40,487 nucleotides of DNA from a virus: the IMG/VR virus record IMGVR_UViG_3300042350_000976, positions 1 through 40,487 of that record; one strand, 5' to 3'. A program made the translations under genes and the position numbers. Numbering within the stretch: position 1 is the stretch's first letter; every line of letters begins with the position of its first letter. The notes beneath the pieces are model-generated. The model had not been told where the DNA came from and searched no databases. It saw nothing but the letters and a program-made list of their open reading frames with translations. This document shows, one piece after another, positions 7,667-29,564 of this stretch.

Positions 7667-7687
7667 AATCTAGTCGCCGACTAGATT
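7667..7687. promoter_or_regulatory. Palindromic operator copy 1 (21 bp)
   Basis: A perfect inverted repeat with arms AATCTAGTCG and CGACTAGATT around one central C. Its 17-bp core TCTAGTCGCCGACTAGA (7669-7685) recurs three more times, at 8498, 9211 and 10371. This copy lies 19 bases upstream of the proposed -35 element at 7707, unlike copies 3 and 4, which lie downstream of their promoters. It is probably the binding site of a dimeric regulator. Confidence 0.8.
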
Positions 7688-7793: not shown

Positions 7794-8330
7794 ATGAACG
7801 CAACCGTTAAGTTTCCCTCCGCTGCCACGTGCACCATTGTGATTGACGCCCTCAAGGGTGACGTGACTCAGTCGAATCGTTGGAAGAAGGCCGCAGACGC
7901 CCTCAGTGCTGATGGCGTCACGGCAGCATCCCTGGCCACCGTGAAGAAGGGTGGCAATGAGGATCTGCGCACCTTTGTGAAGGCCAAGATCGTGATGCCC
8001 TCATTCACTGCCGCTGAACAGCGTTTGCTTGAGACCCCCACGAAGGGTCTGAGTGATGAGAAGAAGGGCAAGAAGGCCACCCTTCAGATGGACGTGGGTT
8101 CGCGCCTCAGCAAGATCGAGCGCCACCTGCAAGCCGCTGAGGAAGCCGCTGCCGCTGCCCTTGAGGGCGAGTCAGAGGGCGCAGGTGCGAAGAAGCCCAC
8201 GAAGGAAGATACGTGGCGCAAGACCCTGAGCACCATTGTGGATCAGGCACAGAAGGCCGAGGGTGCGAAGGTCAACGATGTTTCAGCCTTCATCAAGGCA
8301 CTCAAGGACGCTATCGCACGCATCCAGTAA
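7794..8330 (+). CDS. Lysine/alanine-rich hypothetical protein, own transcription unit (178 aa)
   Basis: The ATG at 7794 is preceded by GAAAGGA (about 10 bases upstream). The protein is highly charged, rich in Lys, Ala and Glu, and predicted mostly helical: an N-terminal domain (1-85), a central helix (about 98-125) turning into an Ala/Glu/Gly linker, and a C-terminal helical domain (140-178). It has no membrane segment, Cys cluster or enzyme motif. It stands alone between its own promoter and a strong terminator, a layout typical of abundant early products. An abundant DNA-binding or host-takeover protein is possible, but I recognise no family. Confidence 0.8.
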   Translation: MNATVKFPSAATCTIVIDALKGDVTQSNRWKKAADALSADGVTAASLATVKKGGNEDLRTFVKAKIVMPSFTAAEQRLLETPTKGLSDEKKGKKATLQMDVGSRLSKIERHLQAAEEAAAAALEGESEGAGAKKPTKEDTWRKTLSTIVDQAQKAEGAKVNDVSAFIKALKDAIARIQ

Positions 8331-8344
8331 GACCCTACCCTTTG

Positions 8345-8371
8345 AGCCCCGCTTCGGCGGGGCTTTTTTTT
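8345..8371 (+). terminator. Intrinsic terminator after the 178-aa gene
   Basis: AGCCCCGC (8345-8352), a TTCG tetraloop and GCGGGGCT (8357-8364) form a perfect 8-bp GC-rich stem, followed by a run of eight T residues (8364-8371). It lies 14 bases after the stop codon. This is a textbook rho-independent terminator that isolates the gene from the repeat region downstream. Confidence 0.95.
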
Positions 8372-8405
8372 GCCCTAAGTTTTTTGGGTGGGATCTCCCC
8401 ACCCT

Positions 8406-8562
8406 TGATGCCAGTGACTCACAGCAGCGGCGAGGGGCGCGGCGAACATTACGTGTGAGCCAGCGATCCCCCTGCGTCAGTGAACACCGTATAACAATCT
8501 AGTCGGCGACTAGAAAAAGATGATGCCAGTGACCTACAGAAGCGGCGAGTGGCGCGCAACAA
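8406..8562. repeat. Pair of about 42-bp imperfect direct repeats
   Basis: Segments 8406-8447 and 8521-8562 both begin TGATGCCAGTGAC and continue with ACAGnAGCGGCGAGnGGCGCG, differing at a few positions. The offset is 115 bp and operator copy 2 lies between them. A third shortened relative (ACAGTAGCGGCAAATGTTCG, 8704-8723) shares the AGCGGC part and runs into a CGAACAGT site, linking this family with the repeats that follow. There is no coding potential. Confidence 0.7.
8498..8514. promoter_or_regulatory. Palindromic operator copy 2
   Basis: TCTAGTCGGCGACTAGA is a perfect palindrome with 8-bp arms around a central G, the same site as copies 1, 3 and 4. It lies 56 bases before the first iteron and is not followed by a gene for 735 bases, so here it may act on replication or on an untranslated transcript. 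A TATAAC element lies just upstream (8490-8495), but I see no acceptable -35 partner. Confidence 0.8.
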
Positions 8563-8564
8563 TG

Positions 8565-9143
8565 TTCGAACTGTTCGGTGATTGACGTGTTCGACTGTTC
8601 GGTTTTTGATCTGTACGACTGTTCGGTTTTTGGCTGCGTGAACTGTTCGGTTTCAACACGTGGCTGCGTTGTTATAGTTTGTAAAAATTTCGTATACAGT
8701 CTTACAGTAGCGGCAAATGTTCGAACAGTACCCCCATTTGTTCCACAAAGTGCGTACAATTTTGTTTCGTATCGCGGCGTGGCAGCGGTTAGCACCTGAT
8801 GTGTAAATCTACATATCAGATTGCATCTATCTTTATCTAATCTTATTAAAATCTACATCACTTCTATACTGTTCGTTTTTTAAAAAAGAGGGTAGCGGGA
8901 AAATTTGCTCCACCCAAAAACGAACAGTTGCCGGTGCAGACTGTTCGGTTTCTCCACGCCGTTTTTTGGGAGAGCATTTTTTCGGCCAAAAAACGAACCA
9001 TCGAACAGTCCTTATAAATCAAGCACTTGCACGCCCCCCATCAAGAACAGTCCAGTACACAATAAAACTCGACAGGCGCAACATACTGCATACTTATCAG
9101 TCTGTACTCAACCTTTATCATCTGACACTGAATCTACCAAGAC
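8565..9143. other. Gene-free repeat-dense region, candidate replication origin or regulatory hub
   Basis: No convincing gene is present on either strand. The 8-mer ACTGTTCG or its complement CGAACAGT occurs nine times: forward at 8570, 8594, 8618, 8642, 8868 and 8940; inverted at 8722, 8921 and 9002. The pair at 8921 and 8940 faces inward with 11 bases between. A strikingly AT-rich stretch (about 8797-8895) lies between the two site clusters and includes an imperfect palindrome at 8796-8819 (CTGATGTGTA and TACATATCAG arms). Iterons plus an AT-rich unwinding-like segment are the usual parts of an origin. The alternative is a multi-operator control region. Confidence 0.6.
8570..8665 (+). repeat. 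Four 24-bp direct repeats (iterons)
   Basis: Units start at 8570, 8594, 8618 and 8642, exactly 24 bp apart, and all begin ACTGTTCGGT. Units 2 and 3 share the first 15 bases. The remaining bases of each unit vary, so the conserved core is about 10-15 bp, and 24 bp is close to two helical turns plus a fraction. The regular phase is typical of sites for a multimerising initiator or repressor. Confidence 0.85.
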
Positions 9144-9172
9144 TTGACAAGCAGTGCTGTTTGGTGTACACT
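9144..9172 (+). promoter_or_regulatory. Sigma70 promoter, first of two related early promoters
   Basis: TTGACA (9144-9149) and TACACT (9167-9172) are separated by 17 bases. The -10 box and the following bases (TACACTACAGGCTGTTGAG) are identical to those of the promoter at 10281, while the spacers differ. It should drive the four genes starting at 9249. Confidence 0.85.
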
Positions 9173-9179
9173 ACAGGCT

Positions 9180-9205
9180 GTTGAGTAGGAGTTCGCCTAC
9201 ACAAC
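9180..9205 (+). promoter_or_regulatory. 5' leader hairpin of the 9249 operon
   Basis: GTTGAGTAGG (9180-9189) and CCTACACAAC (9196-9205) form a 10-bp stem with one mismatch and an AGTTCG loop, right at the predicted 5' end of the transcript. The copy at 10317 is a perfect stem. With no T-run it is not a terminator; transcript stabilisation or binding of a regulator to RNA is possible. Confidence 0.65.
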
Positions 9206-9210
9206 CCGAA

Positions 9211-9227
9211 TCTAGTCGGCGACTAGA
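9211..9227. promoter_or_regulatory. Palindromic operator copy 3
   Basis: TCTAGTCGGCGACTAGA lies 38 bases downstream of the -10 box and ends 21 bases before the ATG at 9249. A protein bound here would block elongation or, in the RNA, the palindrome could fold next to the ribosome binding site (AAGGA at 9237-9241). Confidence 0.85.
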
Positions 9228-9248
9228 AATTTTCTCCAAGGACTGATC

Positions 9249-9476
9249 ATGGAATTCACCTTCAACACCAACCGCATGTACGGCCCCGAGGGCCAGATCA
9301 TCACCGTCACCTGGGACGCGACCACGGGCGTTGCCCGGTTCGATGACAAGACCCGGTGCATCAAGGGCGAGTTGACCAAGCGCATCCCCCAAGACCCCGA
9401 GATGCCGTGGACGCAGATCGAGATGCAAGCCATCGTCCTGGCTCAGTACGACCGCTGCCACTACAACACCATCTGA
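9249..9476 (+). CDS. Small hypothetical early protein (75 aa)
   Basis: The ATG at 9249 follows CAAGGAC at about 7 bases. The 75-residue protein is mixed beta/alpha, acidic, soluble, with two Cys and a Trp-containing DPEMPWTQIEMQAIVLAQY helix near the C-terminus. It is the first gene after the operator-controlled promoter at 9144. No family is recognised; immediate-early host-takeover proteins commonly occupy such positions. Confidence 0.7.
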   Translation: MEFTFNTNRMYGPEGQIITVTWDATTGVARFDDKTRCIKGELTKRIPQDPEMPWTQIEMQAIVLAQYDRCHYNTI

Positions 9477-9491
9477 CCCGGAGCCAACACC

Positions 9492-9713
9492 ATGACCCGC
9501 CGAATGAAACCTACCTGCTCCCGATGCGGGGAGACCTTCTCCGCTGCACGCCGCAACGCCGGATACCACCTGTGCCTGTTCTGTGGCGATGACGCCGCAC
9601 GGGAAGAACGCAAGGGATGGTGCATCGCCCCGATGCACAAGTCCAACTACATGCTGTTCACCAACCCCGCCGACCTGATCGGCATCAACAACAAAGGAGG
9701 GCTTGTCAAATGA
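9492..9713 (+). CDS. Zinc-ribbon small protein (73 aa)
   Basis: Four Cys in two CxxC pairs (C9, C12 and C28, C31) with a basic stretch between form a zinc-ribbon-like knuckle at the N-terminus; the C-terminal half has no motif. GGAG lies 9 bases before the ATG. Its stop overlaps the next start (ATGA). Such ribbons bind nucleic acids or proteins, so a small regulatory role is possible but unproven. Confidence 0.75.
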   Translation: MTRRMKPTCSRCGETFSAARRNAGYHLCLFCGDDAAREERKGWCIAPMHKSNYMLFTNPADLIGINNKGGLVK

Positions 9714-9898
9714 AAGCCGAAACCACCCTGACCCGTGAGGACTGGATCATCCTGCGCCTGATCTATGCGGGGGTGGAAGCCGACCGCCAATTGCGTTTCA
9801 ACCCGGAGTTTCACCGCGCCATGAGCGACCTGCTCAAGCGGTGCGGAGTTCGCGCCGTGCACGAGGCCATCCATCAACTGAACGAGGAGCAAGCATGA
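9710..9898 (+). CDS. Small hypothetical protein (62 aa)
   Basis: The ATG at 9710 overlaps the upstream stop and has a strong ribosome binding site (AAAGGAGGG). The 62-residue product is almost entirely helical and charged, with REDWIILRLIYAG near the N-terminus and a C-terminal ALHxAIHQLNEE-like helix. It ends in an ATGA overlap with the next gene, so the four genes 9249-10257 form a coupled operon. No family is recognised. Confidence 0.7.
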   Translation: MKAETTLTREDWIILRLIYAGVEADRQLRFNPEFHRAMSDLLKRCGVRAVHEAIHQLNEEQA

Positions 9899-10257
9899 AA
9901 CCCATCAAAACATCCAATGCCAACGCACGCCAGTACGTGCAGCGCCGTGAGGAGTTCGACGCAAGCAACACCTTTGCCCGGATTCTGCTCCCCTACGACA
10001 AGTGCCTGACGTATCGGTACGTGGTGTATTCCTATGGCGCGCACTTCCCCTTGTTCGTTGCAGAGTGGCACGGGGATGACGGCAAGGTGCAGTGGTACGA
10101 GACCACGGGCAGGTACAGCGTCACCACGTCCAAGCACAAGACCCAACTGCACCCACTGGAGCAGGCCATGCCCATGGACACGGACAGGATGCAAGTCCTA
10201 ACCACCTACGGTATCGCCGGAGTCGCTGCGGGTATGGAAGCGGACGTGCCTTTCTAA
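9895..10257 (+). CDS. Hypothetical protein (120 aa)
   Basis: The ATG at 9895 (ATGA overlap, preceded by GAGGAGCAAGC) is preferred to an upstream start inside the previous gene. The protein is beta-rich in the middle (LTYRYVVYSYGAHFPLFVAEW), with aromatic residues alternating in strands, then a polar DGKVQWYETT turn. It has no signal or membrane helix. It is the last gene before the second promoter cassette. No function is recognised. Confidence 0.75.
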   Translation: MKPIKTSNANARQYVQRREEFDASNTFARILLPYDKCLTYRYVVYSYGAHFPLFVAEWHGDDGKVQWYETTGRYSVTTSKHKTQLHPLEQAMPMDTDRMQVLTTYGIAGVAAGMEADVPF

Positions 10258-10280
10258 TCGTACCAAGAACTATCAAAGAG

Positions 10281-10309
10281 TTGACAAACGTATCAGATAG
10301 TGATACACT
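10281..10309 (+). promoter_or_regulatory. Sigma70 promoter, second of two related early promoters
   Basis: TTGACA (10281-10286) and TACACT (10304-10309) are separated by 17 bases. The downstream bases repeat those at 9167, then diverge after the hairpin and resume with the operator. It should drive the 305-aa / MoxR / VWA gene block. Confidence 0.85.
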
Positions 10310-10316
10310 ACAGGCT

Positions 10317-10342
10317 GTTGAGTAGGAGATCGCCTACTCAAC
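10317..10342 (+). promoter_or_regulatory. Perfect 5' leader hairpin of the 10411 operon
   Basis: GTTGAGTAGG (10317-10326), loop AGATCG, CCTACTCAAC (10333-10342): a perfect 10-bp stem at the start of the transcript. Compared with 9180-9205 there are changes in the loop and in the 3' arm; here the 3' arm restores full pairing, which supports a conserved RNA or DNA structure. Confidence 0.7.
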
Positions 10343-10370
10343 GCCGGAGTCCATATTCAACGCAACAAGA

Positions 10371-10387
10371 TCTAGTCGCCGACTAGA
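10371..10387. promoter_or_regulatory. Palindromic operator copy 4
   Basis: TCTAGTCGCCGACTAGA lies between the 5' hairpin and the ATG at 10411, 61 bases downstream of the -10 box. It ends 23 bases before the start codon, almost the same distance as copy 3 (21 bases), so spacing to the start codon is kept better than spacing to the promoter. Confidence 0.85.
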
Positions 10388-10410
10388 AAAACTCAAGGAA
10401 AGATCTCACC

Positions 10411-11328
10411 ATGAACACCATCTCGACCCAAACTAATACTGCACCCGTCTTCACCGCCCCGAGCATCGCATCCTCAGCCGTGCTGATCGACATGAGCATC
10501 AGCGTGTGGACTGGGCGCAAGCACGACAAGCGTGCCTCGGAGGAAGTTGTCACCAAGAACAACGCCGCCAAGGGCGTGGCCAATGTGTCCAAGAAACTCC
10601 TCGGCGACTGCGCCGAATTGGACGCGGTGCAGAAGTTCGCAGCAAACGCACGCAACTCGCACTACGCCATGACCACGCCGTGGTCGGATCTCGGGCTGCG
10701 CATGTGCCCCACGGCGACATACATCAACGGGTACGAGAAGCAGATGAGTGGGTTGCAGCAGGAGTTCTACCGCCTTGTAGAAACTTTTTTATCCGCATAC
10801 GACTGGGAGGTGCAGAACGCGCAGTTGAAACTCGGTGCCCTGTTCAACGCCGACGAGTACCCGACGACCGACTCACTGCGTGAGAAGTTCAAGTTCCGCT
10901 ACACCCCCATGCCCATGCCCGAGGCAGGCGACTGGCGACTGGACGTGGAGGCCGAGGCAGCAGCATCCCTGCGCGACCAATACCAAAACTTCTACAGCGA
11001 GCAGTTCAAGCGTGCCATGGATGATGTGTGGCAGCGCACGTACGAGGCACTGTCCAAGATGAGCGAGCGCCTGGACTACGGCGACGACACAAACAAGAAG
11101 ATCTTTCGGGATTCCCTGGTGAGCAACGTCAAGGACATGGTGCAGATGCTGACCGACTTCAATGTCACCGACGACCCGGTGATGCGCAATGCAGCACGCC
11201 AACTGGAGCATGCCCTGGAGGGTGTGACGCCGGAGGCATTGAGAGAAGACTCTTATCTACGAGCCCAAACGAAAAAACAAGTAGATGAGGTGCGCAAGAC
11301 CATCGACAGTCTGGGACTGGGATGGTGA
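10411..11328 (+). CDS. Hypothetical partner protein of the MoxR/VWA module (305 aa)
   Basis: This is the first gene of the operon controlled by the promoter at 10281. Residues 25-35 (LIDMSISVWTG) form a beta strand followed by a basic turn; the rest is mainly helical, with long charged helices at about 180-300. The sequence has the look of the DUF3150-type proteins found in phages and plasmids next to MoxR-like ATPases, but I cannot confirm that family. There is no enzyme motif. The next two large genes encode an AAA+ ATPase and a VWA/metallopeptidase-like protein, so a structural or adaptor subunit of the same complex is the likely role. Confidence 0.75.
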   Translation: MNTISTQTNTAPVFTAPSIASSAVLIDMSISVWTGRKHDKRASEEVVTKNNAAKGVANVSKKLLGDCAELDAVQKFAANARNSHYAMTTPWSDLGLRMCPTATYINGYEKQMSGLQQEFYRLVETFLSAYDWEVQNAQLKLGALFNADEYPTTDSLREKFKFRYTPMPMPEAGDWRLDVEAEAAASLRDQYQNFYSEQFKRAMDDVWQRTYEALSKMSERLDYGDDTNKKIFRDSLVSNVKDMVQMLTDFNVTDDPVMRNAARQLEHALEGVTPEALREDSYLRAQTKKQVDEVRKTIDSLGLGW

Positions 11329-11399
11329 GACAACACGTACGGTAAACGTACCAATAACCAATCACACATCAACATCTTTCAAGGAACCAAGGAACCATC

Positions 11400-12515
11400 A
11401 TGAAGCACAACTCTGCCATCTCCATGTACGCACTGAACCTCGATCAGATCGAGTCGGCCATCATCGCCGGAGGTGACAAGCGAACCATGCTAGTGCAAGG
11501 CCACATGGGTACGGGTAAGTCCTCACTTCTCAAGACCCTGAGCAAGCGCCTCAAGTCCCACACCCCGTGCTACTTCGACTGCACGACCAAGGACTTGGGC
11601 GACATCACGATCCCGCAGTTGCAAACCATTGACGACCAGGGGTTCGTGCGCTACGTGACCAACGAGGAGTTGGGTGTGCACCTGGGCAAGCCGATCATCC
11701 TGATGATTGACGAGTTCGGCAAGGCCAACCCCGCCGTGAAGAACGCCATGCTGCGCCTGATCTTGGAACGCAAGATTGGAAGTTACACCCTGCACGAGGA
11801 CTCAATAGTTTTTGCCACCACTAACCTCGGTGCCGAGGGTGTGGGCGACATGCTGCCGCCGCATGCACGCAACCGGATCTCGGTGGTCACTGCACGCAAG
11901 CCCAGTAACTTGGAATGGATTGAGTGGGGTATCGCCAACGGCGTGGATCACACGTTGCTTGGATGGTGCAAGGACAACCCGCAACTGTTCCAGTCTTTCG
12001 AAGACATCGCCGAGCCGACCGATGCACAAGGCAACCCGACCAACCCCTACGTGTATCACCCACGTGTGCCGATGACTGCGTTTGTCACGCCGCGCTCACT
12101 GGAGGCTGCGTCTGACTGGCTGAAGGTGCGCGATGGGTTCGATGACCAGACCCTGACGGCAATCCTCATGGGCACTATCGGTGAGCGTGGCGCTATGGAT
12201 CTCATGGCGCACGTGAAGATGGCCGACCAACTGCCCCGACTGGATGACATCAAGAAGGATCCCATGAACGCCAAGGTGCCCGAGTCCCCTGCTGCCGTGT
12301 GCATGGTGGTGTATCGCACCCTGTCTGTGATCGACCGCGACTGGGTGGACGCATGGATGACTTACCTGCTGCGCCTGGACAAGGAAGCCCAAGGCATGTT
12401 TGCCAACGGGGTGCGCACGCCCAAGTATCCCAAGCAGTCCATCGTGATGACCAACAAGAAGTTCACCGACTGGGCACGTGAGAACAACTATCTGTTCGCT
12501 GCGGACAAGAAGTGA
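11400..12515 (+). CDS. MoxR-like AAA+ ATPase
   Basis: The 371-residue protein has Walker A GHMGTGKSS (34-42), Walker B LMIDE (101-105), a sensor-1 Asn in FATTNLG (about 139-144) and arginine-finger candidates in HARNRIS (155-161). The compact N-terminus and the helical insert before Walker B fit the MoxR/CobS/NorQ branch of AAA+ proteins, which remodel partner complexes together with VWA proteins. The gene is followed, after a 55-aa ORF, by such a VWA partner. The leader AACATCTTTCAAGGAA (11371-11386) recurs at 14091 before another gene. CobS-like annotations of related phage proteins refer to the fold; cobalamin synthesis is not implied here. Confidence 0.88.
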   Translation: MKHNSAISMYALNLDQIESAIIAGGDKRTMLVQGHMGTGKSSLLKTLSKRLKSHTPCYFDCTTKDLGDITIPQLQTIDDQGFVRYVTNEELGVHLGKPIILMIDEFGKANPAVKNAMLRLILERKIGSYTLHEDSIVFATTNLGAEGVGDMLPPHARNRISVVTARKPSNLEWIEWGIANGVDHTLLGWCKDNPQLFQSFEDIAEPTDAQGNPTNPYVYHPRVPMTAFVTPRSLEAASDWLKVRDGFDDQTLTAILMGTIGERGAMDLMAHVKMADQLPRLDDIKKDPMNAKVPESPAAVCMVVYRTLSVIDRDWVDAWMTYLLRLDKEAQGMFANGVRTPKYPKQSIVMTNKKFTDWARENNYLFAADKK

Positions 12516-19609: not shown

Positions 19610-19692
19610 AAGACCTGAAGAAGGCTCGACATTACATCGACAAGTTGATTGAAACCGAAACGGAGAGAGCACGTGCAACTGATCACCCTTGA
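19381..19692 (+). CDS. DUF3310-family protein (103 aa)
   Basis: The C-terminal 70 residues are a good DUF3310 match: VAGDHYKQFKYETWDVI, GNAVKYLSRWRHKNG, DLKKARHYIDKLI. This small phage family often occurs next to replication or nucleotide-metabolism genes; its function is not known. The ATG at 19381 has a strong AAGGAG site, yet the first 30 residues overlap the zinc ribbon in another frame and have low conservation potential. Its stop lies 20 bases inside the polymerase gene. Confidence 0.8.
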   Translation: MSDVRVSIYDSGDAGRPAAGPAQQPTPSRANDTQVAGDHYKQFKYETWDVILDWGLGYLDGNAVKYLSRWRHKNGIEDLKKARHYIDKLIETETERARATDHP

Positions 19693-21499
19693 CTTTGAGA
19701 CCTACTACGACCGCGACTACTCACTATCCAAGATCACGACAGAGGAGTACGTGCGCAGTGACTTGTTTGAGGTCATCGGTGTTGGCGTGAAGGTGGACAA
19801 CGGCGAAACCCAGTGGGCGAGTGGCACTCATGAAGACATGCGATCTTGGCTTAGGAGTTCGTTCAACTGGGACAACGCCATGGTCTTGGCGCACAACACC
19901 ATGTTCGACGGCGCTATCCTTAACTGGCGGTTTGGTGTTCGCCCTCGCGTGTGGCTTGACACTCTGTGCATGGGCCGCGCTGTACATGGCGTGGAGGTCA
20001 GTGGCTCCCTCAAGGCACTCGCCGAGCGGTACAACCTGGGCGAGAAAGGCACGGAGGTTTTGAACGCCCTGGGCAAGCGCCGCTTGCACTTCACCGACGA
20101 AGAACTTTCACGGTACGGTGACTACTGCATCAACGACGTGGAGTTGACCTACAAGTTGTTCAACCGCATGGTGCGACAGTTCCCGAAGCAGGAGTTGCGT
20201 GTCATCGACACGACCCTACGCATGTTCATCGAGCCGAAGTTGGAGTTGGATCTGTTGCGTCTTGAGCAACACTTGGCCGAGACCCGCATGCGCAAGGAGA
20301 AGTTGTTGTCCGAGTGCGGCGTGGAGAAGGAAGATCTGATGAGCAATCAGAAGTTTGCTGAGTTGCTCAAGACGTTTGGTGTCGAGCCGCCTACGAAGAC
20401 CAGTCCGACCACGGGTAAAGAAACCCTGGCGTTTGCCAAGAACGATGAAGCCTTCCTTGCACTGGCCGAACATCCTGATGACAGGGTGCAAGCCTTGGTG
20501 GCTGCTCGCCTGGGGACTAAGAGCACACTGGAAGAAACAAGGACGCAGCGGTTCATCGACATCGCCAAGCGTGGCACCTTGCCTGTCCCGATCCGGTACT
20601 ACGCCGCACACACCGGACGGTGGGGAGGTGACGACAAGATCAACCTGCAAAACCTGCCGAGCCGTGGAGACAACGCAGGCAAGTTGAAGAAGGCAATCCT
20701 TGCACCCGAGGGTCACATCATCATCGACGCCGACTCCTCACAGATCGAGGCCCGTGTGCTTGCGTGGTTGGCAGGACAAGATGATCTGGTCGAGGCATTC
20801 GCTCAGGGTAAGGATGTCTACAAGAAGATGGCTGCTGCGATCTACGGCAAGCCCGAGGAAGAGATCGAGAAGCCCGAGCGGTTCATCGGCAAGACCACGG
20901 TGCTTGGTGCAGGCTACGGCATGGGCGCTGCTAAGTTTCAGATTCAACTCAAGACCATGGGTGTGGAGGTGGACTTGGATGAGTGCCGCCGCATCATCGA
21001 CATCTACCGCAGGACAAACGACGCCATCGTGAGGCTGTGGCGTCAGGCTCAGAACGTACTGGTCAACATGTCACGGGGTGACGCCGCACAACTGGGCCGC
21101 CCGGGGGTGTTGCAAATCCTGCCCAACGACAACGCGATCAAGTTGCCCTCGGGACTGCTGATGCGCTACGACGACCTGAAGTTCTCGGAAGGCGAGAAGG
21201 GCGTGGAGTTCCACTACCAGACCCGCAAGGGCCGCACCCGCATCTACGGGGGCAAGGTCATCGAGAACGTCTGTCAGGCTATCGCCCGGTGCATCATCGC
21301 CGAGCAGATGCTACGCATTCAGAAGAAGTACCCCGTGGTGATGACGGTGCATGACGCCATCGCCTGTGTGGTGCCGGAGGCTGAAGCCAAACGTGCCCAG
21401 GAGTATGTCGAGGAGAGCATGCGATGGGTACCCGCGTGGGCAGAGGGTCTGCCCGTCAACTGTGAATCTGGAATGGGAAAAAGTTATGGCGACTGCTGA
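19673..21499 (+). CDS. polA: Family A DNA polymerase with 3'-5' exonuclease
   Basis: The start is the GTG at 19673 (GGAGAGAGCAC before it), because the exonuclease begins at once: D7 and E9 in LDFETY (Exo I), an AHNTMFD segment (Exo II) and a Y-x3-D element in DYCINDVELTY (Exo III). Polymerase motif A is DSSQIEARVLA with catalytic D354. Motif B is R-x3-K-x3-L-x3-YG with Leu at residue 411 in place of the Phe762 of E. coli Pol I. Motif C is VHDAIA: H560, D561, and Ala562 where Glu is usual. There is no 5'-3' exonuclease domain. This is the replicative polymerase of the phage, 608 aa. Confidence 0.95.
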   Translation: MQLITLDFETYYDRDYSLSKITTEEYVRSDLFEVIGVGVKVDNGETQWASGTHEDMRSWLRSSFNWDNAMVLAHNTMFDGAILNWRFGVRPRVWLDTLCMGRAVHGVEVSGSLKALAERYNLGEKGTEVLNALGKRRLHFTDEELSRYGDYCINDVELTYKLFNRMVRQFPKQELRVIDTTLRMFIEPKLELDLLRLEQHLAETRMRKEKLLSECGVEKEDLMSNQKFAELLKTFGVEPPTKTSPTTGKETLAFAKNDEAFLALAEHPDDRVQALVAARLGTKSTLEETRTQRFIDIAKRGTLPVPIRYYAAHTGRWGGDDKINLQNLPSRGDNAGKLKKAILAPEGHIIIDADSSQIEARVLAWLAGQDDLVEAFAQGKDVYKKMAAAIYGKPEEEIEKPERFIGKTTVLGAGYGMGAAKFQIQLKTMGVEVDLDECRRIIDIYRRTNDAIVRLWRQAQNVLVNMSRGDAAQLGRPGVLQILPNDNAIKLPSGLLMRYDDLKFSEGEKGVEFHYQTRKGRTRIYGGKVIENVCQAIARCIIAEQMLRIQKKYPVVMTVHDAIACVVPEAEAKRAQEYVEESMRWVPAWAEGLPVNCESGMGKSYGDC

Positions 21500-23143: not shown

Positions 23144-24682
23144 TTGGACATCATCGACAACAAGGCACTGCTCTTGACCCTGCGCAATCCGCAACGGGTC
23201 ACTACGGTCATACCTAAGAGCAAAGAACTACCCAATAACCAAGTGCTGGTTAAGTGGGGGCTGGACGAGGCCCAAGTCCTCAAGAACCTCAAGATCAGGA
23301 ACGTGCCCTCACCCATCCTGGGGCACTACAACTGGCCCGGGAAGCACAAGCCCTTCGACCACCAGAAGGACACCGCTGCATTCCTCACCCTGCACCGCCG
23401 TGCGTTCTGCTTCAACGAGCAAGGCACGGGCAAGACGGGCAGCGTCATCTGGGCATCTGACTACCTGCTCAAGCAAGGCCGCATCAAGCGCGTACTGGTG
23501 ATTTGTCCCCTGTCCATCATGGACAGCGCGTGGCGTGCAGACCTGTTCAAGTTCGCCTTGCACCGCTCGGTGGACATCGCATACGGCAGTGCCGACAAGC
23601 GCAGGGCCGTACTCAACGGCGACTCCGAATACGTCATCATCAACTATGACGGGGTGGAGATCGTGCAGGACGAGATCGCCAACGGTGGGTTCGACCTCAT
23701 CGTTGTCGATGAAGCCAACGCCTACAAGAATGCCATGACCAAGCGGTGGAAGGTGCTCCTCTCCCTGCTCAAGCCCGACACATGGCTGTGGATGCTCACG
23801 GGCACCCCCGCTGCGCAGTCACCCCTGGATGCATACGGCATCGCCAAGTTGGTCAACCCCAACGGTGTGCCCCGGTACTTCTCATCCTTCAAGGACATGG
23901 TGATGCTCAAGGTATCCAACTATCGGTGGGTACCCAAGGACACGGCCACGAACATCGTCTTCCAAGCCCTACAACCTGCCATCCGGTACACCAAGGACGA
24001 GTGCCTGGACCTGCCGGAGATGACCTACGTCAAGCGCAAGATCGAACTGACCAAGCAGCAGGAGAAGTACTACAACCTGCTCAAGAACAAGATGGTGATG
24101 CAGGCAGGGGGCGAGGAGATCACGTCGGTCAACGCCGCCGTGAACATGAACAAGTTGCTTCAGATTTCCTGCGGTGCCGTCTACTCCGACACGGGCGAGG
24201 TGCTTGAGTTCGACATCAGCAAGCGGTACGCCGTGCTCAAGGAAGTCATTGACGAGGCAAGCCAGAAGGTGCTTGTGTTTGTGCCGTTCAAGCACGTCAT
24301 CGACATCCTGGCCCAGAAGTTAAACGCCGATGGGATCCCCACCGAGGTGATCAGTGGCGACGTGTCAGCAGCCAAGCGGACGGACATCTTCAAGAGATTC
24401 CAAGATACCAGTGACCCAAGAGTCCTGGTGATTCAACCGCAATCAGCCGCGCACGGCGTGACGCTCACGGCGGCGAACACGGTCGTGTGGTGGGGCCCCA
24501 CGAGCAGCCTGGAGACCTACGCACAGGCCAACGCCCGGGTGCACCGAAGCGGCCAACGCCACCCATCAACAGTCGTTCAACTTGCGGGCTCCGGTGTAGA
24601 ACGACACGTTTACAACTTACTAGATAATAAAATCGACGTTCACACAAAAATTGTTGACCTCTACAAGGATTTGCTTGCATAA
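23144..24682 (+). CDS. SNF2-family DNA helicase/translocase (512 aa)
   Basis: The start is a TTG at 23144 with GGAGTGA 6-9 bases upstream; there is no good later start before the conserved region. Motifs: a Q-like KPFDHQKD (69-76), Walker A GTGKTGS (94-100), motif II DEAN (189-192) instead of DEAH, motif III LTGTPA, and a C-terminal RecA-like domain with motif VI ARVHRSGQ. These are typical of phage SNF2 proteins, which move along double-stranded DNA. Length is near the minimal two-domain core. It probably supports replication, recombination or removal of bound proteins. Confidence 0.92.
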   Translation: MDIIDNKALLLTLRNPQRVTTVIPKSKELPNNQVLVKWGLDEAQVLKNLKIRNVPSPILGHYNWPGKHKPFDHQKDTAAFLTLHRRAFCFNEQGTGKTGSVIWASDYLLKQGRIKRVLVICPLSIMDSAWRADLFKFALHRSVDIAYGSADKRRAVLNGDSEYVIINYDGVEIVQDEIANGGFDLIVVDEANAYKNAMTKRWKVLLSLLKPDTWLWMLTGTPAAQSPLDAYGIAKLVNPNGVPRYFSSFKDMVMLKVSNYRWVPKDTATNIVFQALQPAIRYTKDECLDLPEMTYVKRKIELTKQQEKYYNLLKNKMVMQAGGEEITSVNAAVNMNKLLQISCGAVYSDTGEVLEFDISKRYAVLKEVIDEASQKVLVFVPFKHVIDILAQKLNADGIPTEVISGDVSAAKRTDIFKRFQDTSDPRVLVIQPQSAAHGVTLTAANTVVWWGPTSSLETYAQANARVHRSGQRHPSTVVQLAGSGVERHVYNLLDNKIDVHTKIVDLYKDLLA

Positions 24683-25411: not shown

Positions 25412-25708
25412 ATGCAGCCCGAGCAGAAGCCCGAGCCGCTGATTCCCATCGAAGACGTGGCAAAACACTTCACCGTGTCCGTGTCCACCGTCCGAGCCTG
25501 GGTGCGGCAGGGGCATATCCCGAGGAGTACCTACGTGAAGATCGGTAACACTTACCGGTTCAACCTCGCAGAGATCCTCGCATCCCTGACCAAGAACCCG
25601 TCAGCAGAGCCGCAACCCGCACTGGTGACCGAGGCCGAATTGACCGCACTGAGTACCCAACCCGTCCAACTTGAACTGGACTTCGCAAACCCTGACAAAG
25701 ACATCTAA
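25412..25708 (+). CDS. MerR/excisionase-type HTH protein (98 aa)
   Basis: Residues about 12-50 are an HTH_17-type winged helix: PIEDVAKHFTVSVSTVRAWV, RQGHIPR, then a VKIGNTYRF wing. The C-terminal 45 residues are Pro/Thr/Gln-rich and unstructured. Such proteins act as excisionases or small transcription regulators; no integrase is visible, so regulation is more likely. It is a candidate to bind the palindrome family or the iterons. It starts 2 bases after the previous stop. Confidence 0.82.
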   Translation: MQPEQKPEPLIPIEDVAKHFTVSVSTVRAWVRQGHIPRSTYVKIGNTYRFNLAEILASLTKNPSAEPQPALVTEAELTALSTQPVQLELDFANPDKDI

Positions 25709-26708: not shown

Positions 26709-29564
26709 ATGGACACAAAACAATTTCTGGAGGCGATTCTTGGCGACAGGGGCTACTACTGTGTCTATGCGGCGCGGCTCAGTGACGAGCGCAAAGTACA
26801 GAAGTTCTACGACAACCTCGACGCTGTAGTAAGCGCAGCCACCCAACTGGATGCGGATGGATACGATGCCTACTTTGCTCTTGCCACGTTCACCGAGGCA
26901 GGGTCACGCAAGACGGCAAACGTCCAACAGATGCGGTCCTTCTTCCTCGACCTCGACTGCGGGGCCGGTAAGGACTATGCGACGCAAGCCGATGCACTGG
27001 GTGCACTGCGTGGTTTCTGCAAACAACTTCAGTTGCCACGGCCAACCGTGGTTAACAGTGGGCGTGGAGTTCATGCGTACTGGCCGTTGACCGAACCCGT
27101 TTCACGGGAAACATGGTTACCTGTAGCCGAGCAGTTGAAGCGGCTGTGCAAGAGACACAGCCTTTTTATCGACCCGGCAGTTCCTGCCGATGCAGCCCGT
27201 GTATTGCGGGTGCCGGGAACACACAACCACAAGGACGAGATACCGAAGGGCGTAGCACTTGTCGGATCGCCCGGCGCAGCCGTGGTGTTCGATGCGTTCA
27301 AAGAACTTCTAGGGGAAGACGGGGTACTCACCGCTGTCAAGAAGTTCACCCCTCGGGAGCAGGATGCGGTGATGCAAGCCCTCTCGGGCAGTTACACCAG
27401 TCGGTTCAAGACCATCATCCTCAAGACCGCTGAAGGTAAGGGCTGCGCCCAACTGCACGAGGTCGTCACCAATCAAGCCAATGTATCGGAGCCGCTGTGG
27501 CGTGCCGGACTATCTATCGCCAAGTTCTGCGTGGATGGTGGTCGGGCAATCCATAAGATCTCAGAGAAGCACCCGGAGTACACGCCGAATGCGACCGAGG
27601 AGAAAGCAGCCCTGATCAAGGGGCCGTACCTGTGTGAGCGGTTCGATGAGTATCGGTCTGATGTGTGCCCCAACTGCATGCACTGGGGCAAGATCAAGTC
27701 GCCAATTACTCTGGGTCGGGAGGTCTTAGAGGCCGAGGAGTCGGACAACGTGGTGGTGCAAAAGCCCATCGACATTCCGAATGCCAAGCCCATCACCTTC
27801 ACGATACCGAAGTACCCGCAGCCCTATTTCCGTGGAAAGAACGGCGGCATTTTCATTCACCAGAAAGGTGAGGGTGATGATGACGCGCCACGTGATAAGT
27901 TGGTGTACCACAACGACCTGTACGTGGTGCGGCGCTTGCGCGACCCGGATATGGGTGAAGCCATCGTCATGAGACTGCACCTGCCCAAGGACGGTGTGCG
28001 TGAGTTCACGCTACCGCTGACGGCAGTGGGATCGAGGGACGACTTCAGAAAGTACCTTGCACAGCAGGGTGTAACTGTTTTGAATGTGGCTGAACTAATG
28101 GACTACACAATGAGATGGGTCAGTGAACTTCAGTACCGCGCCGAGGCGACTGAAGCACGCAGGCAGTTTGGGTGGACCGACGAGGCCGGGACATCCTTCG
28201 CTGTTGGAAACATGGAGATCTTCAAGGATCGGATCGAGATCAACTCCCCCTCAACTGCAACCGCACAGTTCTTCCCCTACTTCCATACGAAGGGGACGTT
28301 CGAAGAGTGGAAGCAGACGATGGAGTTCTTCAACCGTCCGGGCTTTGAGTTGCACCAGTTTGTCTTTGGGATGTCGTTCGGCGCACCGCTGATGCACTTC
28401 CAACCGATCAACGCGGCGGCATTCCATATCTACAGCAAGGGTTCGGGCCTGGGTAAGACCACGGCGATGTTGGCAGGTGCATCAGTCTGGGGCGACCCGG
28501 ATCTGCTGATGCTTCAGGAGCGGGACACATTCGCATCCAAGATGAATCGCGCTGAGGTCTACAAGGATCTCATCGTCTATATGGATGAGATGACCAACAC
28601 CAAACCAGCGGAGTTGTCGGACTGGGCGTATCAACTTCCTAGTGGTTTGCAGCGCAACCGCATGTCTGGGAAGAGCAACGTGGAGCGCATTCGGGGCAAG
28701 CCCTGGAAGACGATGTTCGGGACATCGGGTAATGCCGGTCTGGTCGAGCGTATCGGCACGTACAAGCGCATGCCCGAGGCTGAGGCGCAGCGGATCCTTG
28801 AGCACAAGGTGTTGCGGGTTTACTTCAAGGATAAGAGCGAGACCGACGAGTTCAGCACCAACATCAAGCAGCACTACGGCCACGCCGGGGTGCCGTACAT
28901 CCAGTACCTTCTCAACAACTTGGATGCCGCCAAGGAACTGGCCAAGATCAATCAGAACAAGATTGACGCCGCTGCGGGGCTGACTGCTGAGAACCGGTTC
29001 TGGTCGGTCTTGGTGTCTCGCACCCTGGCGGGGCTGATGCTTGCCAAGCGTGCGGGGCTCATCAACTGGGAGATCGCACCGATTGCTCGGTGGTCTGTGG
29101 AGATGCTGAAGGTGGCGAAGGAAGCGTCCAAGGAGATGGCAAGTGAGTCCAACTCCCTGCTGACCGACTATCTGGCTGAGAACTACAACAACATCCTGCG
29201 CATCAAGAGCACGGACGACGCCCGGAAACAGCAGACAGGTCTGGATCACCTGATCCACCCGGAGGCGGTACCTCGCATGAACTTCGTGGCTCGGTACGAG
29301 TACGACGTGAAGAAGTTGTACCTGCTGCCCAAGCCCCTGAAGGAGTGGTGCGTCAAGCAGCAACTCAACTACCTGGGTCTGGTGGACACCCTCAAGGCCG
29401 CACCGACCAACCTGAAGAAGGAGAAGATGCGCCTGAGCCGTGGCACCCACATGAACCTACCCCCTGCGGACGTGCTGACCATCGACTGCTCAAGTTTCAT
29501 GACCGATGAAACCGAAAACGCTATGGCGACAACCGCCGCGCTCATGGAAAAACAGGCTACGTAA
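26709..29564 (+). CDS. Primase-helicase fusion (951 aa)
   Basis: The N-terminal 220 residues have AEP-type primase features: the hhhDhD motif FFLDLDCG with D81 and D83, GRGVHAYWPL with H122 (sxH motif), and an RVLRVPGTHNHK element near 188-199. A Cys cluster (VCPNCMHWG) follows near 317-325. The C-terminal half is a superfamily-3/DUF927-like ATPase with Walker A GSGLGKTT (578-585) and Walker B VYMDEMTN (D626). A single protein would prime and unwind at the fork, in place of a T7 gp4-type enzyme. The ATG at 26709 has no strong ribosome binding site. Confidence 0.88.
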   Translation: MDTKQFLEAILGDRGYYCVYAARLSDERKVQKFYDNLDAVVSAATQLDADGYDAYFALATFTEAGSRKTANVQQMRSFFLDLDCGAGKDYATQADALGALRGFCKQLQLPRPTVVNSGRGVHAYWPLTEPVSRETWLPVAEQLKRLCKRHSLFIDPAVPADAARVLRVPGTHNHKDEIPKGVALVGSPGAAVVFDAFKELLGEDGVLTAVKKFTPREQDAVMQALSGSYTSRFKTIILKTAEGKGCAQLHEVVTNQANVSEPLWRAGLSIAKFCVDGGRAIHKISEKHPEYTPNATEEKAALIKGPYLCERFDEYRSDVCPNCMHWGKIKSPITLGREVLEAEESDNVVVQKPIDIPNAKPITFTIPKYPQPYFRGKNGGIFIHQKGEGDDDAPRDKLVYHNDLYVVRRLRDPDMGEAIVMRLHLPKDGVREFTLPLTAVGSRDDFRKYLAQQGVTVLNVAELMDYTMRWVSELQYRAEATEARRQFGWTDEAGTSFAVGNMEIFKDRIEINSPSTATAQFFPYFHTKGTFEEWKQTMEFFNRPGFELHQFVFGMSFGAPLMHFQPINAAAFHIYSKGSGLGKTTAMLAGASVWGDPDLLMLQERDTFASKMNRAEVYKDLIVYMDEMTNTKPAELSDWAYQLPSGLQRNRMSGKSNVERIRGKPWKTMFGTSGNAGLVERIGTYKRMPEAEAQRILEHKVLRVYFKDKSETDEFSTNIKQHYGHAGVPYIQYLLNNLDAAKELAKINQNKIDAAAGLTAENRFWSVLVSRTLAGLMLAKRAGLINWEIAPIARWSVEMLKVAKEASKEMASESNSLLTDYLAENYNNILRIKSTDDARKQQTGLDHLIHPEAVPRMNFVARYEYDVKKLYLLPKPLKEWCVKQQLNYLGLVDTLKAAPTNLKKEKMRLSRGTHMNLPPADVLTIDCSSFMTDETENAMATTAALMEKQAT

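Follow-up and report, generated by a model that had tools for sequence, protein, structure and literature searches.

Among the described replication systems, the closest to the locus reported here are found in mobile elements of the SaPI, PICI and SCC types. PICI origins consist of AT-rich DNA flanked by two sets of iterons (PMC6092414), and in the SaPI Rep helicases it is the C-terminal domain that recognises the iterons (PMC7581432). The Cch protein, a relative of SaPIbov1 Rep, contains the DUF927 domain (PMC7581432). For the PrimQH-type primases of mobile elements, PMC5862659 gives the domain order AEP, PriCT/zinc domain, ATPase including DUF927, and winged helix.

In this study, the window denotes the whole stretch of viral DNA that was analysed, 40,487 bp in length. 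An initial annotation had pointed to a repeat array in it as a candidate replication origin and had recognised no phage origin of this form. The latter remark was right only in part, as the form is that of the SaPI/PICI satellite origins (PMC6092414) and the phage encodes an initiator-helicase of that family. Judged from its sequence, the array region is very probably the replication origin of the phage. It also seems reasonably likely, from the domains and family of the protein, that the array is read by the primase-helicase which the phage itself encodes.

Repeat array and AT-rich segment in the window

The word ACTGTTCG occurs in nine exact copies within 440 bp (8570-9009; six on the plus strand and three on the minus strand; Table 1), and 12 times in the whole 40,487-bp window, three of the copies lying outside the array. 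The whole-window expectation is 1.7, and among 100 shuffles the maximum was 6 and 12 was never reached, which bears out the earlier statement that nine copies in 440 bp are beyond chance. No other 8-mer cluster in the window is as strong (logE -19), apart from the low-complexity sequence that ends the contig on the right; the best logE in the shuffled window was -6.5 (20 crude 2-mer-block shuffles). As a positive control, the same scan recovered the type 1 repeats already known from the P4 origin.

When one mismatch is allowed, extra iteron copies appear, for example AATGTTCG at 8561 and 8716. The repeats had been introduced as 24-bp iterons, four of them at an exact 24-bp period (8570, 8594, 8618 and 8642). 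The period is indeed exact for these first four copies; since it is limited to them, and the other copies are irregularly spaced and in both orientations, the iteron is a word of 8-9 bp and not a 24-bp unit. The copies at 8921(-) and 8940(+), once taken as facing inwards, actually face outwards, and the inward-facing pair is 8868(+)/8921(-); here the iteron at 8868 forms a perfect 13-bp inverted repeat with 8916-8928. The AT-rich stretch reported beside the iterons is present as well, and it holds the lowest 100-bp G+C content of the window (27%), inside the array. Clustered short repeats and an AT-rich, putative unwinding element, the features of iteron origins in general, are thus found together at this locus. 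Just left of the iterons there is also a 36-bp direct repeat (8406-8441 and 8521-8556), whose copies share 89% identity at a distance of 115 bp; part of a third copy is present near 8700.

Table 1. Positions of the array elements and of related genes and signals in the window
Feature	Position	Strand	Remark
178-aa protein beside array, left	7794..8330	+	also array-adjacent in G001, G011, G023
Noncoding origin region (putative)	8331..9248	.	between + ORF 7794-8330 and first early gene (ATG 9249)
Hairpin resembling an intrinsic terminator, at the end of ORF 7794-8330	8344..8371	+	sequence
Iteron ACTGTTCG, 24-bp block, copy 1	8570..8577	+	exact match
Iteron ACTGTTCG, 24-bp block, copy 2	8594..8601	+	exact match
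Iteron ACTGTTCG, 24-bp block, copy 3	8618..8625	+	exact match
Iteron ACTGTTCG, 24-bp block, copy 4	8642..8649	+	exact match
Inverted iteron left of AT-rich core	8722..8729	-	overlaps + variant AATGTTCG at 8716
AT-rich segment, putative DNA unwinding element	8788..8895	.	27% G+C
Iteron, right edge of AT-rich segment	8868..8875	+	exact match
Inverted iteron, right block	8921..8928	-	exact match
Iteron, right block	8940..8947	+	exact match
Inverted iteron, right block	9002..9009	-	exact match
Sigma-70-like promoter TTGACA-17-TACACT, towards early genes	9144..9172	+	sequence
Family A DNA polymerase (likely replicative)	19649..21499	+	domain match
SNF2/SF2 helicase, replication module	23144..24682	+	domain match
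Candidate initiator, 951 aa: AEP primase - DUF927 helicase - putative winged-helix C-terminus (about residues 860-926)	26709..29564	+	

Genomic setting of the array

A noncoding stretch of some 920 bp contains the array. To the left of the array are the late genes for the small and large terminase subunits and the portal, all leftward, with terS ~1.2 kb away; to its right, the rightward early and replication genes encode an ATPase, a VWA/metallopeptidase, a family A polymerase, a PD-(D/E)XK nuclease, an SNF2 helicase and the primase-helicase. An Rfam search of the noncoding region found no family, and a DNA similarity search of this region in a phage collection gave short marginal matches only, mostly around the terminator hairpin. 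The neighbouring 178-aa protein has no family match in domain searches.

Separate from the iterons, the palindrome CTAGTCGnCGACTAG forms an operator-like set of four exact copies (7670-7684, 8499-8513, 9212-9226 and 10372-10386), its expectation being 0.11 with up to two mismatches, and two of the copies precede start codons by about 23-25 bp. Analogous palindromes stand at comparable places in relatives (TGTTAGGGA/TCCCTAACA; TTGTTAGTG/CACTAACAA). Among the late genes, a glycosyltransferase family 2 gene beside the portal gene (2037-2774) has no match in the ten genomes compared.

The 40.5-kb record is probably incomplete, since most relatives that share its gene order measure about 56-65 kb. 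Its right contig end (40048-40450) is a GC-rich low-complexity tandem repeat with many CCGAGCCC, at which the assembly probably stopped.

Arrays in relatives

Relatives were collected by TerL in IMG/VR, and at the same site, about 1.6-3.2 kb upstream of terL, they carry clustered words that differ in letters and share a common core. The word is ACTGTTCG in the window and in contig L006 (metallopeptidase 98% identical), AATGTTCG in G011 and G021-G024, AATGTTCC in G001 and L067, AGTGTTCG in G004, TAAAGTTC in L025, L039 and L041, TAAAGTTAT in L081 and AATGTCTGG in L032. At least six copies of a related word (at most one mismatch) were counted in 15 of the 22 TerL loci whose sequence extends 2.5 kb or more upstream of terL, and shuffles rarely exceed five; by this six-copy criterion, 7 of the 22 loci have no array, showing five copies, a different word or none.

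With all loci in the window's orientation, the elements usually come in the order 24-bp direct repeats, copies 10-11 bp apart and an inverted copy, then a gap of about 70-200 bp which holds the AT minimum, and then copies in both orientations. Individual arrays may miss some of these elements; L074 has eight 24-bp direct repeats, and in the near-identical relative the third 24-bp step is 25. Exact 24-bp same-strand pairs in 18 arrays number 26 versus 1.27 expected. Because seeds and region limits were picked by eye from the TerL-locus scan and 9 of the 18 arrays contribute all the pairs, this count is a description of conservation rather than an independent test of significance. Each of the 18 arrays has two or more iterons on either side of its AT minimum, which falls in one of the three longest gaps in 17/18. 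In the window, G001, G023 and G012, moreover, the array contains the 100 bp of lowest G+C in the whole contig, and in G011 and G004 it contains about the second-lowest.

Array, AT minimum and layout can all be read directly from these genomes. In relatives with the flanking genes, the array, its 24-bp spacing and the AT-rich core are kept beside terS/terL rather than lost, with the letters diverged, and this conservation favours and supports, as far as comparison of sequences can, the origin that had been proposed. Cumulative GC skew, also put forward as a check, has its minimum, with the array set at zero, 1.3-2.9 kb from the array in G001, G011, G012 and G023, thus within about 3 kb in four relatives; in the window itself the minimum is at position 12.1 kb. 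Because gene orientation switches at the same place and the contigs are not all known to be complete circles, the skew is consistent support and not proof.

Candidate initiator

Wherever an array-bearing genome is long enough for the check, it encodes an AEP primase-DUF927 helicase; in the window this is a protein of 951 aa. Its alignment contains the AEP motifs FLDLD and SGRGxH, a cysteine cluster, Walker A GLGKTT and Walker B MDE. It matches Pfam DUF927 at 1.5e-24, and its profile matches the PDB entries 8tch (SaPIbov1 Rep, 5.6e-24) and 5dgk (SCCmec Cch, 7.7e-22), so that both the domain content and the family, that of SaPIbov1-type Rep helicases, are directly observed. The best fold matches of the structural model are again SaPIbov1 Rep and SCCmec Cch (8tch fold 5.2e-15), with AEP primases next; since global confidence in the model is moderate (pLDDT 81, pTM 0.43), the domain matches count and their arrangement does not. 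For the C-terminal domain, the predicted secondary structure is strand-strand-helix-helix-strand-strand, and a fold search with this domain alone returned at the top mostly winged-helix DNA-binding domains, none of them significant (best E 0.2); a sequence profile of it found no relevant chain among PDB sequences.

The polymerase, the SNF2 helicase and the 951-aa protein are present in 10/10 genomes compared, and VRR-NUC and PD-(D/E)XK nucleases in nearly all ten; as these relatives were partly chosen by primase, the presence of the primase is not independent evidence, and that of the array is. The bacterial genomes searched yielded distant primase relatives only and no close prophage. The window (ACTG), G004 (AGTG) and the genomes with AATG differ in the C-terminal domain just after the second helix, and this co-variation of iteron letters and domain was rejected as evidence since three classes are too few.

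Alternative explanations

One variant keeps the origin and assigns its recognition to another phage or host protein, such as the 178-aa neighbour, which would bind the iterons and load the helicase. The gene for this neighbour adjoins the array and is conserved there in three relatives, and plasmid initiators usually adjoin their iterons; but no homologue is detectable in array-bearing G004 or G012, the protein matched no family, and the helicase of the window is a member of a family of self-loading initiators, which makes this variant unlikely.

Still less probable is that the array binds a phage transcription regulator acting as an early/late switch at divergent promoters, in which case the AT-rich stretch would be promoter DNA and replication would start elsewhere. 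Such a function would suit the position between divergent early and late genes and the consensus promoter at 9144-9172, and in plasmids the iterons bound by an initiator often serve in its autoregulation as well. However, the separate palindromic set described above, with its four exact copies near genes, is the better regulator site, and the enclosure of the AT minimum by iterons in every array also speaks against this function. Moreover, the small helix-turn-helix genes of the window, among them the one at 25412, were not found in array-bearing G012, whereas the primase-helicase is present in every relative compared (relatives partly chosen by it).

A further comparison bears on which genes the array accompanies. 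G014 (primase 38%) and G013 (primase 27%, word ACTATCTGT) carry arrays with no TerL match, while HTVC027P (first 50 kb scanned) and DSL-LC04, in which TerL is about 45-47% but the primase and helicase are different, have no comparable array; this points to an array that travels with the replication module rather than with the terminase. For the same reason, and since to our knowledge an enclosed AT-rich core is not usual in pac sites, it is very improbable that the array is a site for packaging (pac) or partition next to the terminase genes, even with terS as near as about 1.2 kb.

The link between array and primase weakens with distance: in RHph_TM3_14A (primase 25%) clear iterons were not found and an AT-rich gap of 18% G+C stands at the head of the early genes, and Rollin (primase about 30%) has a palindrome array and no clear iteron array. 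In this Pseudomonas phage (OR577172.1), the noncoding region 61262-517 contains several whole or half copies of AAAAGGTAGyAAGTTACTACCTTTT, and elsewhere the record has a run of N near 990; because the repeats are palindromes, the cluster is operator-like and was rejected as iterons. A scan of primase loci in relatives detected no array close to the primase. In L214 (Hylemonella MAG, 8710-11448), an integrase gene precedes a gene for an AEP-VapE fusion, at whose 3' end a GATACCCT word occurs eight times; this array was rejected as kin, for it belongs to a VapE-type PICI-like element, which has the classical arrangement of PICIs and a helicase of another family.

Proposed mechanism of initiation

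Taken as a whole, the best explanation, which we hold with nearly the same confidence as the origin itself, is an origin at 8565-9010 served by the 951-aa primase-helicase. We infer that replication would start here with the binding of the C-terminal domain of this protein to the 8-9-bp iterons on both sides of 8788-8895. The protein would assemble at the iterons as hexamers, melt the AT-rich DNA and load itself; its N-terminal domain may then prime, and the family A polymerase (19649-21499) may take over. The forks would leave both ways and move in the same direction as transcription of the divergent early and late genes.

Uncultured aquatic phages gain in this way a testable candidate origin and initiator, and the replication of satellites (SaPI/PICI/SCC) is tied to that of autonomous phages. 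The diverged iterons with their putative readers also offer a natural series for the evolution of initiator specificity.

Comparison with known systems

The iteron letters of P4 ori/crr nearly coincide with those of the window (P4 ACTGTTCACC, window ACTGTTCGG), and both systems have iterons in both orientations and a primase-helicase initiator. However, of the P4 type 1 iterons TGTTCACC the window has ACTGTTC in common and lacks ACC, which sets its repeats apart from that type. Homology with the P4 alpha protein was rejected, as the latter does not align with the 951-aa protein and consists of different Pfam domains (Toprim/D5_N/Pox_D5). The agreement in letters is probably a coincidence. With the PrimQH-type AEP fusions, the likeness is one of domain order as described for mobile-element primases in PMC5862659. 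SCCmec Cch (PDB 5dgk) shares the DUF927 ATPase family and is the top structural match of the 951-aa model, but in its chromosomal cassette Cch is a helicase on its own, whereas the helicase of the window is fused to a primase.

The pri-rep-ori of SaPIbov1/PICI (PDB 8tch) shares with the window an initiator-helicase of the same family by sequence and fold, an AEP primase, and two sets of short iterons that enclose AT-rich DNA. In contrast to these elements, the window has primase and helicase fused and a 24-bp-phased block on one side of the AT-rich DNA. A PICI origin lies directly 3' of rep, whereas here the origin (8.3-9.2 kb) and the gene (26.7-29.6 kb) are about 18 kb apart, and the window is no helper-dependent island but a whole phage with its own polymerase, portal, terminase and virion genes. 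The array would work like a SaPI/PICI origin, yet it is not classed as a PICI member, because these two defining features of PICIs are not found. On balance we lean towards the picture of an aquatic clade of free-living tailed phages with a PICI-type origin and a distant, fused AEP primase-DUF927 self-loading helicase, in which the iteron letters would have been re-tuned in each lineage and the spacing kept.
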